NCBI RefSeq assembly: GCF_018417535.1
Contig: NZ_CP070978.1
Span: 1,426,001-1,490,000 of the forward strand
Reading direction: 5' to 3'
DNA length: 64,000 bases
From: Burkholderia pyrrocinia
Lineage (GTDB): Bacteria; Pseudomonadota; Gammaproteobacteria; Burkholderiales; Burkholderiaceae
The notes beneath the pieces were generated by a model that was not told the DNA's origin, ran no database searches, and saw only the letters and a program-made list of their open reading frames with translations. Both the position numbers and the translations under genes were made by a program. Of this stretch, positions 38,837 through 44,449 are shown piece after piece. Position 1 is the first letter of the stretch. Every line of letters starts with the position of its first letter.

Positions 38837-38963
38837 TCCGCCTACGCTGCCAGCACCCCTTCACCCGATTCGGATTCTTCGACGGAGAAGACAATCGACC
38901 TGAAAGGGGAGCAGGCGCCGCAGGCGCCCTCACTTGGCACATCATTTCTCTTCGGAGCGAATC

Positions 38964-39539
38964 ATGGGACACCGCGAAATTCTGGCCGGCGCACCGGCGA
39001 CCATCGAAATCATCTCGCTGTTCGACGTCGAGCTGATTCTGCACGACTTCAAACCCGTGGGTAACAAGACGCCTGAGAAGGCAATCTGGCTCCCTCACGG
39101 GCCGACCTCGGTGAAATATGCGTACATGGTTGCGCCCGAGGAATATGTGAAACCCTCGACGAACGCGACGCCGGACATCTCGATCTACGGCCTCACCGGC
39201 GACACCGTTCGCTGGCGCGGCCTCTCGTTCAGCGGGAACATCAATCATGCGGGAGCGCTGGTTTCGGTCGAACCGAACGGCACCTCCAAAGTCCTCAAGT
39301 TCCAGGGCCCGCCGAACGATGTTCCGGGATCCTATCTTGCGTACAACATCGACAAGAAGGAACCCTACGATCTCAAGAACTTCCTGGACAACCGCGTCAG
39401 CGCTTCGGTTGTCGGTTACGGCACCGATCAATACATCGTGACCTTCTACGCAATGGAGGTCGACCGCAGGACCGGGGAGATCGATTACGCAAACTCCGGA
39501 TACTACAAGTGGGATCCGGAAGTGACCTGCCTCGCCTGA
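38964..39539 (+). CDS. aidA: AidA/PixA-family inclusion-body protein
   Basis: A 191-residue soluble protein of the PixA/AidA family (PF12306). The family marks are ISLFDVELILHDFKPVG near residue 14, ISIYGLTGDTVRWRGLSFSG in the middle, and QYIVTFYAMEVDRRTGEIDY at the end. In B. cenocepacia AidA is strongly induced by CepIR quorum sensing and matters for killing nematodes; in Xenorhabdus PixA forms crystalline inclusions. I see no clear cep box upstream. The ATG at 38964 has GGAGCG; ten extra codons upstream are less likely. Confidence 0.82.
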   Translation: MGHREILAGAPATIEIISLFDVELILHDFKPVGNKTPEKAIWLPHGPTSVKYAYMVAPEEYVKPSTNATPDISIYGLTGDTVRWRGLSFSGNINHAGALVSVEPNGTSKVLKFQGPPNDVPGSYLAYNIDKKEPYDLKNFLDNRVSASVVGYGTDQYIVTFYAMEVDRRTGEIDYANSGYYKWDPEVTCLA

Positions 39540-39718: not shown

Positions 39719-41356
39719 CTAACGCCCACCGGTCGACGGTACGCCCCTGTCGAGCACCTGCCGCACTGCCTCCCAATCCAGCCCGAACCGTGCAAGGTAT
39801 TTGCGCAGCCGGTCCGCATCGTTCGGCTGCTTCTTGCTCTGCCGCGACACCGCGAACAGCGTGCGCCCGGCTTCCGACAGGCTCGCCGACACGCGGCACA
39901 CATCGAGCACGCGTTCGAGCTGCGCGCGGTCGAACAGGTCGAGTTCCGCCGCACGCGCACCGAACACCGCATCGACCCACGTATCGGACGCGCCCGCGCC
40001 GCCCGGCGACGACCACGTGCGCGTCAGCCGCTCGACTTCCTGCTCGGCCAGGTCCTCGGTAATCCGTCCCGCATCGGCCAGTGTCGCCATCCGCGTGACC
40101 GAGGCCGACAACTCGCGGAAGTTGCCGGCCCACGCCGCGCGCGGCGACGCCGCGAACGCGAGATAGCGCCGTTTTGCTTCCACGTTGAAACGCACCTGCT
40201 CGCCCTGCTCGCGGCCAAAACGGTCGAGCTCGAATTCAAGGTTCGGCTCGATGTCCTCGCGGCGTTCGGCGAGCCCCGGCAATTCGTACGTCCACAGATT
40301 GATCCGCGCATAGAGATCCTCGCGGAACGTGCCGGCCGCCACCATCTGCCGCAGGTCGCGGTGCGTGCCCGCGATCAGCTCGAAATCGCTGGCCGCCTCG
40401 ACATCCGCGCCGACCGGCAGGAAGCGCTTCTCCTCGATCGCCTTCAGCAGCATCGCCTGCTCGTCGAGCCCGAGTTCGCCGATTTCGTCGAGAAACAGCA
40501 GGCCGCCGTCCGCCGCGCGCAACAGCCCCGCGCGGGCCGACTGCGCACCCGTGAATGCGCCCTTCACGTGGCCGAACAGCGTCGACATCGCCGCGTCGCC
40601 GCGCAGCGTCGCGCAGTTGATCTCGATGAACGGCCCCGCGAGCCGATGGCGGCCGCGCTTCAGCTCGTACACGCGTTTCGCGAGAAACGACTTGCCGGCG
40701 CCGGTCGGCCCGACGAGCAGCATCGGCGCGCGCGAACGCACGGCCACGCGCTCCAGTTGCTCGATCAGCGTATTGAAGCGCGCGTTGCGCGTTGCGATGC
40801 CGGCCTTCAGGAACGACACCGTTTCGTCGCGTTCGCGCGTGAAGCGCTGCGCGATCCGGTTGTAACGCGACAGGTCGAGATCGATCACCGACACCGTGCC
40901 CGGCCCGCTCGGCCCTTCGTCGGTCTGCTGCGGCGGCCCCGTCTGCACGAGGCGCGCGGGCAGGTAGCGCGCTTCCGCCAGCAGGAACCAGCAGATCTGC
41001 GCGACGTGCGTGCCGGTCGTGATGTGGATCAGGTAATCCTCGTGTTCGAGGTCGAACGGGTACGCGCGCGCGTAGTCATGCAGCGTCGCATAGACCTCCT
41101 CGAAATCCCACGGGTCGTGGATCGTGAGCGGCGTGAGCCGCACGTCGGTGTGCGGCGACAGCCGCGCGAGATCGTCCCGCACCTGGTTGGCGAGGCGCGT
41201 GTAGCTCAGCGGATGCAGCAACTCGAGCCGGTCGATCGGCAGGTCGGGTTGCTCGCACAGCGAGATCGTCGGCCGCCATTTGCGGTAGCGGCGCGGCGCG
41301 CGGCCGCCCTGGTCGAGCACGGTGCCGAGAAAACCGATCGCGACTGTCTTTCGCAT
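39719..41356 (-). CDS. rtcR: Sigma-54-dependent activator of RNA repair, RtcR
   Basis: A 545-residue activator. Residues 1-180 form the CARF domain that senses RNA ends (MRKTVAIGFLGTVLDQGG, then EDYLIHITTGTHVAQICWFL). The AAA+ domain has Walker A GPTGAGKS, the sigma-54 contact loop GAFTGA, Walker B LLFLDEIGEL and the arginine fingers (FREDLYARINLWTYELPGL). The C-terminal HTH includes RVSASLSEAGRTLFAVSRQS. RNA with 2',3'-cyclic phosphate ends is the reported trigger. It is divergent from the operon it should control. The ATG at 41356 gives the exact RtcR start; the frame beyond it covers the binding sites. Confidence 0.95.
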   Translation of the reverse strand: MRKTVAIGFLGTVLDQGGRAPRRYRKWRPTISLCEQPDLPIDRLELLHPLSYTRLANQVRDDLARLSPHTDVRLTPLTIHDPWDFEEVYATLHDYARAYPFDLEHEDYLIHITTGTHVAQICWFLLAEARYLPARLVQTGPPQQTDEGPSGPGTVSVIDLDLSRYNRIAQRFTRERDETVSFLKAGIATRNARFNTLIEQLERVAVRSRAPMLLVGPTGAGKSFLAKRVYELKRGRHRLAGPFIEINCATLRGDAAMSTLFGHVKGAFTGAQSARAGLLRAADGGLLFLDEIGELGLDEQAMLLKAIEEKRFLPVGADVEAASDFELIAGTHRDLRQMVAAGTFREDLYARINLWTYELPGLAERREDIEPNLEFELDRFGREQGEQVRFNVEAKRRYLAFAASPRAAWAGNFRELSASVTRMATLADAGRITEDLAEQEVERLTRTWSSPGGAGASDTWVDAVFGARAAELDLFDRAQLERVLDVCRVSASLSEAGRTLFAVSRQSKKQPNDADRLRKYLARFGLDWEAVRQVLDRGVPSTGGR

Positions 41357-41504: not shown

Positions 41505-41520
41505 TGGCACGCTCCTCGCT
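41505..41520 (+). promoter_or_regulatory. Sigma-54 promoter of the rtc operon
   Basis: TGGCAC-GCTCC-TCGCT matches the -24/-12 consensus TGGCAC-N5-TTGCW with one mismatch and correct GG/GC spacing. Initiation would be near 41531, just before the structured RNA segment. The DNA between the enhancer and this promoter is AT-rich, and AATCAA at 41433 could be part of an IHF site. Confidence 0.8.
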
Positions 41521-41528
41521 AAATAGAA

Positions 41529-41644
41529 GGCGCCGGATGTCCCGCTGGCCCGCGAGCCAGGGTTCGCAAAGCCCTGCTGGTGCGCCGTCGCCGAACCTCG
41601 TTCGTCGCGGCAGCGCATGCCGCCATGGACAGACGAAGGCAAAG
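41529..41644 (+). other. 5' structured part of the rtc leader RNA
   Basis: After the predicted start site the leader contains hairpins rather than codons. CTGGC pairs with GCCAG (41545-41560), or alternatively CAGGG pairs with CCCTG (41559-41575). CGAAC-CTC-GTTCG lies at 41592-41604 and GCGGCA-GCGCA-TGCCGC at 41607-41623. GGCGC at 41529 could close the first group with GCGCC at 41582. No tRNA or Y-RNA fold is recognised here. Confidence 0.45.
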
Positions 41645-41689
41645 GGGCGCGCAAGGAGCCACGCCCGGGTTCGAATCCCGGGGCGCCCA
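41645..41689 (+). ncRNA. tRNA acceptor/T-arm minihelix
   Basis: GGGCGC (41645-41650) pairs with GCGCCC (41683-41688). Inside it CCGGG-TTCGAAT-CCCGG (41665-41681) is a canonical T-arm whose 7-base loop carries the invariant TTCGA. C41664 and G41682 can extend the T stem to six pairs, so the two stems stack into the 12-bp top half of a tRNA. Only 13 bases (41651-41663) replace the D and anticodon arms. The base after the acceptor is A (41689), as in a discriminator, but no CCA is encoded. It directly abuts a second tRNA-like unit. Confidence 0.7.
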
Positions 41690-41690
41690 C

Positions 41691-41762
41691 TGTTCGAAAG
41701 CTCATTCAGGTGGAGCAGCCGGCGAAAGCCGGCCGGTGGCGGGTTCGAATCCCGCTCGAACG
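41691..41762 (+). ncRNA. tRNA-like cloverleaf with GAAA tetraloop in place of anticodon
   Basis: A 72-base cloverleaf. The acceptor is TGTTCGA (41691-41697) with TCGAACG (41756-41762), seven pairs, one of them U-G. The D-arm GCTC-ATTCAGGTG-GAGC (41700-41716) is canonical, with A14-like and GG bases. Instead of an anticodon arm there is GCCGGC-GAAA-GCCGGC (41718-41733), a 6-bp stem capped by a GNRA tetraloop. The variable loop is CGGTG. The T-arm GCGGG-TTCGAAT-CCCGC (41739-41755) is perfect. Positions 8-9 are AA rather than U8, and CCA is not encoded. It cannot decode; it is a tRNA mimic transcribed in the RtcR-controlled operon. Confidence 0.8.
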
Positions 41763-41824
41763 CTGTCCGCAAGGACAGTCTCTTGATAGAAGCAGTACCC
41801 GCCGGTGCGGGCCGAAAGGCCCGC
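41763..41824 (+). other. Two further GNRA-capped hairpins after the tRNA-like unit
   Basis: CTGTCC-GCAA-GGACAG (41763-41778) starts at the base after the acceptor stem. GCGGGCC-GAAA-GGCCCGC (41807-41824) follows. Both are perfect stems with GNRA tetraloops, so the leader has three such hairpins in about 110 bases. They could be processing signals or docking elements. Confidence 0.6.
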
Positions 41825-42021
41825 CGCGCGTCGGACCGGTTGCGGTTCCGCGCGATCGGCCGGGCGGCCGGACGGCCCGCGCGAATGCGCACGATGACGC
41901 GATGCAGGATGCGTCGCCGTGCTGCACCCACGCCGGCCTCCGCGCCGCCCGCCCGATTGCGTCGCACCGCGATCCGCACGATGCGCGTCACCCGGCGGCC
42001 ATTAACGAAAAGGACAAGAAT
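41825..42021 (+). other. 3' part of rtc leader, no feature seen
   Basis: High-GC sequence between the last GNRA hairpin and the slipin start. It contains no supported gene; only the slipin ribosome site (AAAAGGA) at its end is clear. Confidence 0.4.
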
Positions 42022-43161
42022 ATGTGGAAGCGTCATGTAGTGAAAAAGAACGAACGCGCGCTGCTGATGAGCGAGGGCGATTTCGTGAAGGTGCTGGAAC
42101 CGGGCGTGTTCAAGGCCTTCGATCCGTTCAAGCGCCTGTCGGTGCAGACCGCGCGTCTCGACGCGCCGCTCGCCGACGAAGCGCTGGCCGACTACCTGCG
42201 TCACGACGCGCAGGACGTGCTCGCGCACTATTTCGTCGCGATGGATCTCGCCGACGACGAAGCGGGCCTGCGCTATGAAGACGACGTGCTCGTCGAGATC
42301 CTGGCGCCGGGCACGCGCCGGCTGTACTGGCGCGGCCTGATCGCGCACCGCCTCGAACGTGTCGATCTCGCGCAGGACAGCATGCTGCCGGCCGCGCTCG
42401 TGAAACGCATCGCGCAACCGGCACTGCGTGCGCGTGGTGTGGCGGGCCTGACGGGCGTGCTGCTGGCGCAGGTGCCGGCGTATCACGTCGGCATGCTGAA
42501 GATCGACGGCAAGATCGAGCGGCTGCTGGACGCGGGTGTGTCGGCGTTCTGGCGCTTCAACCGCGACGTCGCAGTGGAACTCGTCGACCTGCGCGTGCAG
42601 GCGCTCGAAGTCGGCGGGCAGGAAATCCTGACGCGCGACAAGGTCGCGCTGCGGCTGAACCTGTCGGCGACGTGGTGCTATGCGGACGTGCTGCATGCGT
42701 TCGGCCAGTTGCAGAAGCCGGTCGAACACCTGTATCGCGAGCTGCAGTTCGCATTGCGTGCGGCTGTCGGTACGCGCTCGCTCGACGAGCTGCTGGAGGA
42801 CAAGCAGTCGATCGACGACGTCGTGATCGCGCAGGTGCGTGCACGCCTCGAAAACTCGGGCGTGGACGTGCGCAGCGTCGGCGTGAAGGATATCGTGCTG
42901 CCGGGCGACATGAAGACGATCCTCGCGCAGGTGGTCGAAGCCGAAAAGGCCGCGCAGGCGAACGTGATTCGCCGTCGCGAGGAAACGGCGGCGACGCGTT
43001 CGCTGCTGAACACCGCGAAGGTGATGGAAGAGAACCCGACCGCGCTGCGGCTCAAGGAGCTGGAAACGCTCGAGCGCGTCGCGGAACGGATCGATCGCAT
43101 CTCGGTGTTCGGAGGTCTCGACCAGGTGCTGAACGGACTCGTCAGCATCAAGGGCGCTTGA
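42022..43161 (+). CDS. Slipin (SPFH/band-7) protein of the RNA-repair operon
   Basis: A 379-residue SPFH-domain protein. The band-7 core covers about residues 130-300 (YHVGMLKIDGKIERLLDAGV, then VSAFWRFNRDVAVELVDLRV and QEILTRDKVALRLNLSATW). A coiled C-terminal region follows (VVEAEKAAQANVIRRREETA, then TAATRSLLNTAKVMEENPTA). No clear membrane helix is present, so it may assemble in the cytosol or bind membranes peripherally. Slipins of this kind recur beside rtcB in many Proteobacteria, but their role in RNA repair is unknown. An AAAAGGA ribosome site precedes the ATG. It is 64 bases before rtcB. Confidence 0.88.
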   Translation: MWKRHVVKKNERALLMSEGDFVKVLEPGVFKAFDPFKRLSVQTARLDAPLADEALADYLRHDAQDVLAHYFVAMDLADDEAGLRYEDDVLVEILAPGTRRLYWRGLIAHRLERVDLAQDSMLPAALVKRIAQPALRARGVAGLTGVLLAQVPAYHVGMLKIDGKIERLLDAGVSAFWRFNRDVAVELVDLRVQALEVGGQEILTRDKVALRLNLSATWCYADVLHAFGQLQKPVEHLYRELQFALRAAVGTRSLDELLEDKQSIDDVVIAQVRARLENSGVDVRSVGVKDIVLPGDMKTILAQVVEAEKAAQANVIRRREETAATRSLLNTAKVMEENPTALRLKELETLERVAERIDRISVFGGLDQVLNGLVSIKGA

Positions 43162-43225
43162 TGAGTGCAACAACCGGCGCGGCACACGAGTGCCGCGCCG
43201 GACGAATGAACGAATGGTGAAGCAA

Positions 43226-44449
43226 ATGACCGACATGGATTATCAGGTGATGGAACTGGCGAACGGCAAGCCGGTGAAGATGTGGACGCAAGGCGTCGCC
43301 GTCGAGGACGAAGCGCGCGCGCAACTGCGCAACACCGCGCAGATGCCGTTCATCTTCCGCCACGTCGCGGTGATGCCGGACGTGCACCTCGGCAAGGGCT
43401 CGACGATCGGCAGCGTGATTCCGACGAAGGGCGCGATCATTCCTGCCGCGGTCGGCGTCGATATCGGCTGCGGGATGATGGCCGCGCGCACGACGCTGAC
43501 GGCGTCCGACCTGCCGGACTCGCTCGCCGGGCTGCGCAGCGCGATCGAACGCGCGGTGCCGCACGGCCGCGCGCCGGGCCGCCGCGATCCGGGCGCGTGG
43601 GGCGATCGCACGCCGGCCGCCGTGACCGAATCGTGGAAAGCGCTGCTGCCGGGTTTCCAGCGCATCGTCGACAAGTATCCGAAGCTGGAAAAGACCAACC
43701 ACTACGCGCATCTCGGCACGCTCGGCACCGGCAACCACTTCATCGAAGTGTGCGTCGATGAAGCGGGCCACGTGTGGTTCATGCTGCACAGCGGCTCGCG
43801 CGGCGTCGGCAACGCGATCGGCAGCCTGTTCATCGAACTCGCGCAGGCCGACATGCGGCAACACATCGCGAACCTGCCGGATCGCAACCTCGCATATTTC
43901 ACCGAGGGCAGCCGGCATTTCGACGACTACGTCGAAGCGGTCGGCTGGGCGCAGGACTACGCGCGGCGCAACCGGCAGGCGATGATGGACGCGGTGATCG
44001 GCGCAGCGCGCGGCGTGATCGGCAAGCCGTTCGCGGTCGACGAACACGCGGTGAACTGCCACCACAACTACGTGCAGCGCGAACGCCATTTCGGTGAGGA
44101 CGTGCTCGTGACGCGCAAGGGCGCGGTGTCCGCGCAGAAGGGGCAGCTCGGGATCATTCCGGGTTCGATGGGTGCGAAGAGCTTCATCGTGCGCGGGCTC
44201 GGCAATCCGGAAAGCTTCTGCTCGTGCAGCCACGGCGCGGGCCGGACGATGAGCCGCACCGAAGCGAAGCGCCGCTTCACGGCCGACGACCAGGCGAAGG
44301 CGACGCAAGGCGTCGAATGCCGGAAGGACGCGGGTGTCGTCGACGAAATCCCGATGGCCTACAAGGACATCGACGCGGTGATGGCGGCCCAGCGCAGCCT
44401 CGTCGAAGTGGTGCATACGCTGCGCCAGGTGGTGTGCGTGAAAGGATAG
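43226..44449 (+). CDS. rtcB: RNA-splicing ligase RtcB
   Basis: A 407-residue GTP- and Mn-dependent ligase that joins RNA 2',3'-cyclic phosphate (or 3'-phosphate) ends to 5'-OH ends. Near-identity to E. coli RtcB is visible: FIFRHVAVMPDVHLGKGSTI, metal site VGVDIGCGM, LGTLGTGNHFIE, NCHHNYVQ, IIPGSMGAKSFIVRGLGN and SCSHGAGRTMSR with the GMP-accepting histidine; it ends QVVCVKG. I chose the ATG at 43226; 43214 and 43235 are also possible. It follows the slipin gene in the putative RtcR regulon. No rtcA cyclase gene is present in the window. Confidence 0.96.
   Translation: MTDMDYQVMELANGKPVKMWTQGVAVEDEARAQLRNTAQMPFIFRHVAVMPDVHLGKGSTIGSVIPTKGAIIPAAVGVDIGCGMMAARTTLTASDLPDSLAGLRSAIERAVPHGRAPGRRDPGAWGDRTPAAVTESWKALLPGFQRIVDKYPKLEKTNHYAHLGTLGTGNHFIEVCVDEAGHVWFMLHSGSRGVGNAIGSLFIELAQADMRQHIANLPDRNLAYFTEGSRHFDDYVEAVGWAQDYARRNRQAMMDAVIGAARGVIGKPFAVDEHAVNCHHNYVQRERHFGEDVLVTRKGAVSAQKGQLGIIPGSMGAKSFIVRGLGNPESFCSCSHGAGRTMSRTEAKRRFTADDQAKATQGVECRKDAGVVDEIPMAYKDIDAVMAAQRSLVEVVHTLRQVVCVKG

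Follow-up and report, generated by a model that had tools for sequence, protein, structure and literature searches.

An RNA that imitates tRNA is already known from RtcR-controlled RNA-repair operons. In Salmonella, 5′ tRNA halves bearing a cyclic phosphate were found to be the activator of RtcR (PMC7790460), and RtcAB bind the CARF domain of this regulator (PMC9650030). Operons of the rsr-yrlBA-rtcBA type carry YrlA (RF02553), the closest known counterpart of the RNA described here, a tRNA-mimicking non-coding RNA with tRNA-type D and T arms. The Rfam consensus presents YrlA as a single RNA made of a basal stem and a tRNA-like domain whose T arm comes before its D arm, and the RNA is tied to Rsr/Ro60. 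Through this domain YrlA bridges Rsr and PNPase, and it is modified by DusA and TruB (PMC8394870); its fragments went undetected when tRNAs were cut (PMC7790460). Elsewhere, tRNAOther of Bacillus cereus is tRNA-shaped, stands outside translation and has been proposed to be the tRNA-like part of a larger regulatory RNA; its anticodon is that for Trp and it is located next to a pathogenicity island, and the accessible part of its description mentions no RNA-repair operon (PMC3399842). Furthermore, phage tRNAs have been argued to evade host anticodon nucleases through changes in the anticodon loop, a hypothesis of the authors of that work (PMC10264068).

Herein, an RtcR locus is described from Burkholderia pyrrocinia, within a stretch of 64,000 nucleotides that was analysed as a whole and is called the window (all positions refer to it). 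The rtcR gene, encoding an RtcR domain and a sigma-54 AAA+ domain (39719..41356, minus strand; Pfam PF06956, 272.8 bits), diverges from a slipin gene (42022..43161, plus strand; SPFH/Band_7, Pfam PF01145, with predicted structures and fold matches in agreement) and from the gene of the RNA ligase RtcB (43214..44449, plus strand; Pfam PF01139, 436.9 bits). A sigma-54 promoter of the -24/-12 type, TGGCACGCTCCTCGC (41505..41519, plus strand), was recognised from sequence only; with it, the three marks of an RtcR operon (divergent rtcR, sigma-54 promoter and rtcB) are all found in the window. The promoter pattern occurs in 25 of 25 rtcR-bearing loci vs. none of the seven examined loci without rtcR, and, together with the Pfam assignments of the genes, this bears out the earlier sequence-only reading of the locus as an RtcR/sigma-54 RNA-repair operon with slipin and rtcB. 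A gene for a PixA-type inclusion body protein adjoins rtcR (window 38934-39539).

The element on which that reading centred, TM2 (41691..41762, plus strand), is the last of three structured elements, A1, TM1 and TM2, that follow the promoter and precede slipin and rtcB; it lies 172 bases from the end of the sigma-54 site. The sequence-only reading had noted neither TM1 and A1 nor the link to slipin, and the picture has to be amended, as TM1 (41645..41689, plus strand) ends one to two bases before TM2 and the structured A1 precedes TM1. A1 (41532..41640, ends approximate, plus strand) is closed by a stem, has CYGGTGC...GCATGCCGC as its conserved core, is kept in 30 Burkholderia loci, and in 19 Pseudomonas homologues gives a consensus fold of 28 pairs, 8 of them changed on both sides. 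TM1 is a reduced tRNA-like element with the acceptor GGGCGC/GCGCCC and the T arm CCCGGG-TTCGAAT-CCCGGG, its D and anticodon arms having shrunk to a tiny hairpin at most. Across 27 distinct homologous acceptors, the 3′ acceptor strand of TM1 formed a mean helix of 5.33 bp in its own upstream sequence vs. 3.92 bp in swapped ones, and none of 500 swaps reached as high. In the Pseudomonas nitroreducens group, TM1 is a full cloverleaf, and its cap is GNRA or UUCG in six loci (L094, L098, L110, L121, L137, L141), the only clear tetraloops quoted here, given that script-picked hairpins cannot be trusted where TM1 is reduced. Ten loci from several genera share the order sigma-54 site, A1, TM1, TM2. 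Directly 3′ of TM2, sequence and consensus fold give a hairpin, CTGTCC-GCAA-GGACAG (41763..41778, plus strand), with no clear T-run. Further downstream, a conserved GCAGTACCCGCCGGTGCGGGCC in window 41790-41850 repeats the CCGGTGC motif of A1.

TM2 itself is a cloverleaf of 72 nt, recognised by sequence, ARAGORN, folding, alignment and covariance model. Its acceptor (41691-41697/41756-41762) consists of six Watson-Crick pairs and a terminal U-G, the D arm (GCTC/GAGC, 41700-41703/41713-41716) has GG in its loop, and the T arm (41739-41755) reads GCGGG-TTCGAAT-CCCGC after a variable stretch CGGTG. At the anticodon position stands GCCGGC-GAAA-GCCGGC (41718-41733), a 6-bp stem closed by a GAAA tetraloop. 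The cloverleaf is also the minimum-energy fold (-33.5 kcal/mol, z -2.5), equalled by 4 of 200 shuffles, and ARAGORN labels the element 'tRNA-???' with an incomplete anticodon; the 72-base cloverleaf with a GNRA loop in place of the anticodon, as first read from the sequence, is thereby confirmed. TM2 shares the cloverleaf with its D and T arms, and the T loop UUCGAAU, with tRNA-Sec, ordinary tRNAs and tmRNA, but it has neither a 7-nt U33 anticodon loop with a readable anticodon nor an encoded CCA, positions 41763-41765 being CTG. The Rfam search of the window returned no family at its gathering score; under permissive settings the best match of TM2 was tRNA-Sec at 28 bits (cut-off 47), and ARAGORN called no tmRNA gene within the window. 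In its own genome, a model built from TM2 and its relatives scored TM2 at 103 bits vs. 52 bits for the runner-up, a tRNA-Phe. In addition, the phage tRNAs cited above have mutated loops, whereas the loop of TM2 is gone.

Compared with YrlA, the window RNA is also a tRNA mimic in an RtcR/RtcB operon, but it comprises two tRNA-like elements of normal arm order behind A1 and is tied to slipin. The best YrlA matches in the window reached 21.4 and 17.2 bits vs. a gathering score of 69, and no TROVE protein (PF05731, E ≤ 0.001) was found in the genome, while TROVE was detected in a control genome. Membership among the Y RNAs was therefore rejected on three grounds (no YrlA match at the cut-off, no TROVE protein, another arm order); the comparison with Y RNAs made in the sequence-only reading is right as an analogy but does not extend to classing TM2 as one of them. 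Three slipin loci (L143, L147, L156) contain partial matches to YrlA, at 33-34 bits. One RtcR locus without slipin (L059) has three T-loop motifs and three YrlA-like matches of 39-62 bits, under the cut-off of 69. In the literature searched, of which only parts of the texts were available, no tRNA-like RNA tied to slipin-rtcB was described, and the same holds for the exchange of the anticodon loop for GNRA in this operon, which had been put forward as new. The RNA made up of A1 and the TM1-TM2 pair is apparently undescribed.

Comparison among relatives indicates that the structure is maintained. A 321-nt query found matches at E ≤ 0.001 in 42 of 101 genomes, 36 of them nearly full-length, and 30 of these near-full-length loci make up the Burkholderia alignment. 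Over its 28 distinct rows, 99.8% of TM2 cells are paired, and three pairs show a change of both partners, each in one cell, vs. 0.6 in shuffles; all of them belong to the capped hairpin, suggesting retention of its stem. In the wider set of 68 distinct TM2s, every T-stem pair is intact and three of its positions show double changes, pairing of the inner acceptor holds in 91% of cells vs. 77% when shuffled, and the stem at the anticodon position, itself chosen for pairing, shows double changes at all four outer pairs; pairing of the D stem, and in part of the T-stem ends, was set by the search pattern. The expectation of a tRNA mimic with compensatory stem changes among relatives is thus borne out both within Burkholderia and across the 68 distinct TM2s. 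These observations bear on the possibility that the elements are decaying, functionless tRNA genes. TM2 is lost or degenerate in L082, L089 and L133 and in six Pseudomonas loci, as decay would have it, but the compensatory changes, the order kept behind the sigma-54 promoter, the narrow spacing and the linkage to slipin make decay the most improbable of the explanations considered. For the window element, a decayed tRNA or scar was set aside on the grounds of covariation and operon context.

The loop at the anticodon position varies widely. Out of 90 loci, 79 were parsed, giving 68 distinct TM2s after duplicates were merged; the 11 unparsed loci are L082, L089, L093, L096, L097, L099, L101, L107, L123, L131 and L133, L123 being almost without upstream sequence. 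Loops of 3-6 nt were found in 48 of the 68 (33 GNRA, 5 UNCG and 10 other), 7-nt loops without U33 in 8 and 7-nt loops with U33 in 12, with L115 and L135 counted as short although they are also readable as U33 loops. The GNRA cap singled out in the sequence-only reading stands as the rule in Burkholderia, where 28 of 30 aligned loci carry it (L002 has AAAA and L030 a 7-nt CCACAAA); elsewhere it is one among several loop types. A quick tree of slipin (61 rows) is unrooted and so gives no direction of change; it counts L115 and L135 with the canonical loops, for 14 rows in all, and treats some 3-nt loops as 7-nt. On this tree the GNRA state requires six changes, at least three of them forced by well-supported branches, and likewise the canonical state. 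The Burkholderia/Paraburkholderia, Acidovorax/Delftia and Aquabacterium/BURC groups have GNRA caps, and UNCG caps are found in Pseudomonas and L041; the two tetraloop types fall in separate groups of the slipin tree, and the D and T arms are kept while loops vary. Four of the 12 U33 TM2s lie in rtcR-bearing loci (L091, L109, L111, L113). As 12 of 68 keep such a loop, four of them with rtcR, sealing of the anticodon end is not required everywhere; it is recurrent, not universal. A role of rtcR presence in causing sealed loops is not claimed, since behind the raw correlation there is just one independent contrast.

Some members of the family stand closer to tRNA than the TM2 of the window, as the Rfam tRNA cut-off is passed by TM1 of L143 and L147 and by two elements of L156. 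Nearby encoded CCA was found for 11 of 79 TM2s and 23 of 67 TM1s; given CCA and the Rfam passes, some mimics may be processed or charged like tRNAs. Acceptor runs of at most five pairs occur in 30 of 67 rows, and some of the shortest of these runs reflect register slips in parsing. In PA7 (L090), TM2 alone was recognised; L082, L089 and L133 have a degenerate TM2 or none. Neither a T loop nor a recognisable TM pair was found in six Pseudomonas loci (L093, L096, L097, L099, L101, L107), which keep the sigma-54 site, the A1 motif, rtcR, slipin and rtcB. Altogether, and as far as comparison of sequences reaches, these data show a conserved structured RNA in which the elbow formed by the D and T arms is kept, the acceptor is often short and mostly without CCA, and the anticodon loop is replaced or highly variable.

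The loci with tRNA-like loops raise the question of whether TM2 could be a spare or emergency tRNA, functional in at least some lineages, with reserve sets kept beside RtcB. Where rtcR was not found, 8 of 13 parsed TM2s have a U33 loop and two more are ambiguous, and ordinary-looking tRNA arrays lie upstream; with the Rfam passes of L143, L147 and L156, these are the points in its favour. They are outweighed by the 56 of 68 TM2s (two ambiguous) that lack a 7-nt U33 loop, the short acceptor runs, even allowing for the register slips, and the missing anticodon loop and CCA in the window, so that this explanation is very unlikely. The arrays are an observation in their own right: six slipin-rtcB loci in which rtcR was not found (L114, L116, L119, L120, L137, L141) have 5-14 apparently normal tRNA genes upstream of slipin. 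Over ten such loci, 54 array tRNAs were counted, 53 with CCA and 46 with U before the anticodon, and six of seven tested loci (L114, L115, L116, L119, L137, L141) have a gene with an HNH domain placed between the array and the mimics. A reserve tRNA set linked to RNA repair is a possible interpretation of these arrays.

The distribution of the mimics follows that of slipin. In a sample of 300 genomes of the window's order, RtcR was present in 36, with 38 places of which 30 loci were taken. Slipin adjoins rtcR in ten of these 30, and in every one TM2 was matched at 45 bits or more and two T loops were spaced by 69-75 nt, so that the covariance-model search suggested for other rtcR-slipin-rtcB loci came out positive throughout. 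The 20 loci without slipin in the examined stretch had no TM2 match above 15 bits; among them, L038 and L053 have one T-loop motif each, and the three motifs of L059 match YrlA below its cut-off. In a phylum sample, scored by T-loop motifs, ARAGORN and Rfam instead of the covariance model, RtcR was found in 28 of 398 genomes and 20 new loci were obtained, reduced to 19 by leaving out L162, which fell below the cut-off. Four of the 19 have slipin (L143, L147, L152, L156), with 2, 2, 1 and 3 T loops, and none of the 15 others has mimics, the single T loop of L155 belonging to a normal-looking tRNA-Pro. Taken together, elements beside rtcR were found in 14 of 14 slipin loci (at least two in 13) vs. 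0 of 35 loci without slipin. Neither slipin nor rtcB lay in the examined stretch in 11 of the 20 (order) and 8 of the 15 (phylum) slipin-less loci, so a slipin further away would be missed there; L048 offered only about 540 bases upstream, and T loops were counted by a regular expression that misses variants. On this evidence, the tRNA-like pairs are found mostly where slipin is in the operon.

The named loci of the complementary survey are the best 80 of 329 slipin relatives. Among these best 80, rtcR was found in 65 and not found in 15, a count affected by short upstream stretches in L117, L118, L123, L131 and L142, and T-loop pairs 60-85 nt apart occur in 67. Three side observations belong here. 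In L086, the slipin match covers 1587 vs. 1137 bases, which suggests an interrupted gene in that strain. In L155, which has no slipin, the tRNA-Pro(UGG) gene follows a possible sigma-54 site in the interval that separates rtcR from rtcB. In L156, the rtcR-slipin intergenic region has three tandem tRNA-like elements behind an A1-like motif, and its slipin is only about 30% identical; this arrangement with so distant a slipin implies that the mimic family reaches further than the loci studied.

Stomatin, HflK/C and the major vault protein form rings or cages. The window slipin is up to 98% identical to the slipin of B. cepacia LK29, and its predicted model (pLDDT 82, pTM 0.61) has three beta domains (2-45, 71-115, 146-189), after which come the remainder of the SPFH domain and a long helix. 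In fold matches, the model resembles stomatin and HflK/C, and the major vault protein less well. An assignment as a vault protein, for which MVP-type repeats ahead of an SPFH-like shoulder domain would be expected, is not favoured, since the matches of the full model to the major vault protein rest mainly on the SPFH part and the N-terminal domains alone match the first domains of erlin and HflK better. That slipin binds RNA is a guess.

As 5′ tRNA halves activate RtcR, synthesis of the mimic RNA is expected while tRNAs are undergoing cleavage, and it is probably produced when cells mend cut RNA. The reading preferred here, still tentatively, is that A1-TM1-TM2 is the leader of RtcR/sigma-54 slipin-rtcB operons and an elbow-mimicking platform that works with slipin and RtcB, its decoding end sealed. 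The elbow would serve as a docking platform, and through it A1-TM1-TM2 would recruit tRNA-handling partners that bind elbows (RtcB or cleaved tRNA, and possibly PNPase or modifying enzymes) to a slipin assembly, by analogy with the way in which YrlA links Rsr to PNPase. The decoding end, sealed in several lineages, would let the mimic escape the nucleases active at that moment and would yield no new 5′ halves to re-trigger RtcR. It is reasonable to expect that sealed loops cannot be cut by anticodon nucleases, but nuclease resistance would not be the whole story, given the 12 of 68 relatives that keep a U33 loop.

The position of the mimics allows a reading confined to the mRNA. In the best 80 of 329 slipin relatives, the T loop of TM2, where found, is on the slipin strand and precedes that gene by about 230-343 nt, which agrees with a cis-acting leader whose mimics act within the mRNA only. 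They would be sites for RNase P, RNase Z, the CCA enzyme or a tRNA-binding protein, and would control how stable the slipin-rtcB message is or how well it is translated. A drop in cellular tRNAs would then free the binding protein to occupy the leader. The CCA encoded after TM1 in 23 of 67 cases and the proposal made for tRNAOther (PMC3399842) lean the same way, but stable tetraloop caps in several groups and the presence of two copies are left unexplained, and we regard this as a possible though doubtful account, one that is compatible with the platform model. An unlikely third account makes the RNA a decoy or competitive inhibitor, its abundant uncuttable tRNA bodies titrating anticodon nucleases or other tRNA-handling enzymes. 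Hughes et al. raised such a role for the tRNA-like domain of YrlA (PMC7790460), and the phage tRNAs give a parallel (PMC10264068). It can be argued against it that a decoy without an anticodon loop would titrate only nucleases that read the tRNA body, that the loop types point to no common target, and that an mRNA leader would be a poor source of excess decoy unless processed.

A broader proposal, to be held with considerable doubt, extends the platform reading: RtcR operons would hold two interchangeable ribonucleoproteins, each a cage with a tRNA-mimicking RNA. In one, Rsr as a TROVE ring would pair with YrlA; in the other, slipin, as an SPFH cage with additional beta domains, would pair with A1-TM1-TM2. 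The slipin-linked RNA would then be a bacterial analogue of Y or vault RNA, tethering tRNA-repair enzymes inside or on the SPFH cage, with tRNA bodies sealed at the decoding end against the nucleases that trigger its synthesis. Independently of this proposal, an apparently undescribed RNA is added to the RNA-repair operons of many Beta- and Gammaproteobacteria, slipin predicts which of these operons carry the mimic, and RtcB biology gains a concrete RNA to test. Furthermore, the repeated change of the anticodon loop with the elbow kept amounts to a natural experiment that could show which features of a tRNA nucleases and repair enzymes recognise.

There is an apparent counterpart in Pseudomonas aeruginosa. 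In PAO1, PA4581 is RtcR (PMC8694187) and PA4582-PA4584 are part of the rtcB operon (PMC8619066), so that PA4581.1, annotated as a 'tRNA gene', lies between them by number. ARAGORN reads the TM2 of PA7 (L090) as tRNA-Arg, a call that supports the view that PA4581.1 is apparently the TM2 of P. aeruginosa; its label as a tRNA in that species is suggested to be a mis-annotation. PA4581.1 was reported as one of two genes named among the highest expression increases in a later isolate (PMC8743555), and this increase makes it likely that the mimic RNA is expressed. In addition, PA4581-4585 are among the genes changed in a pmrB mutant (PMC6325167).
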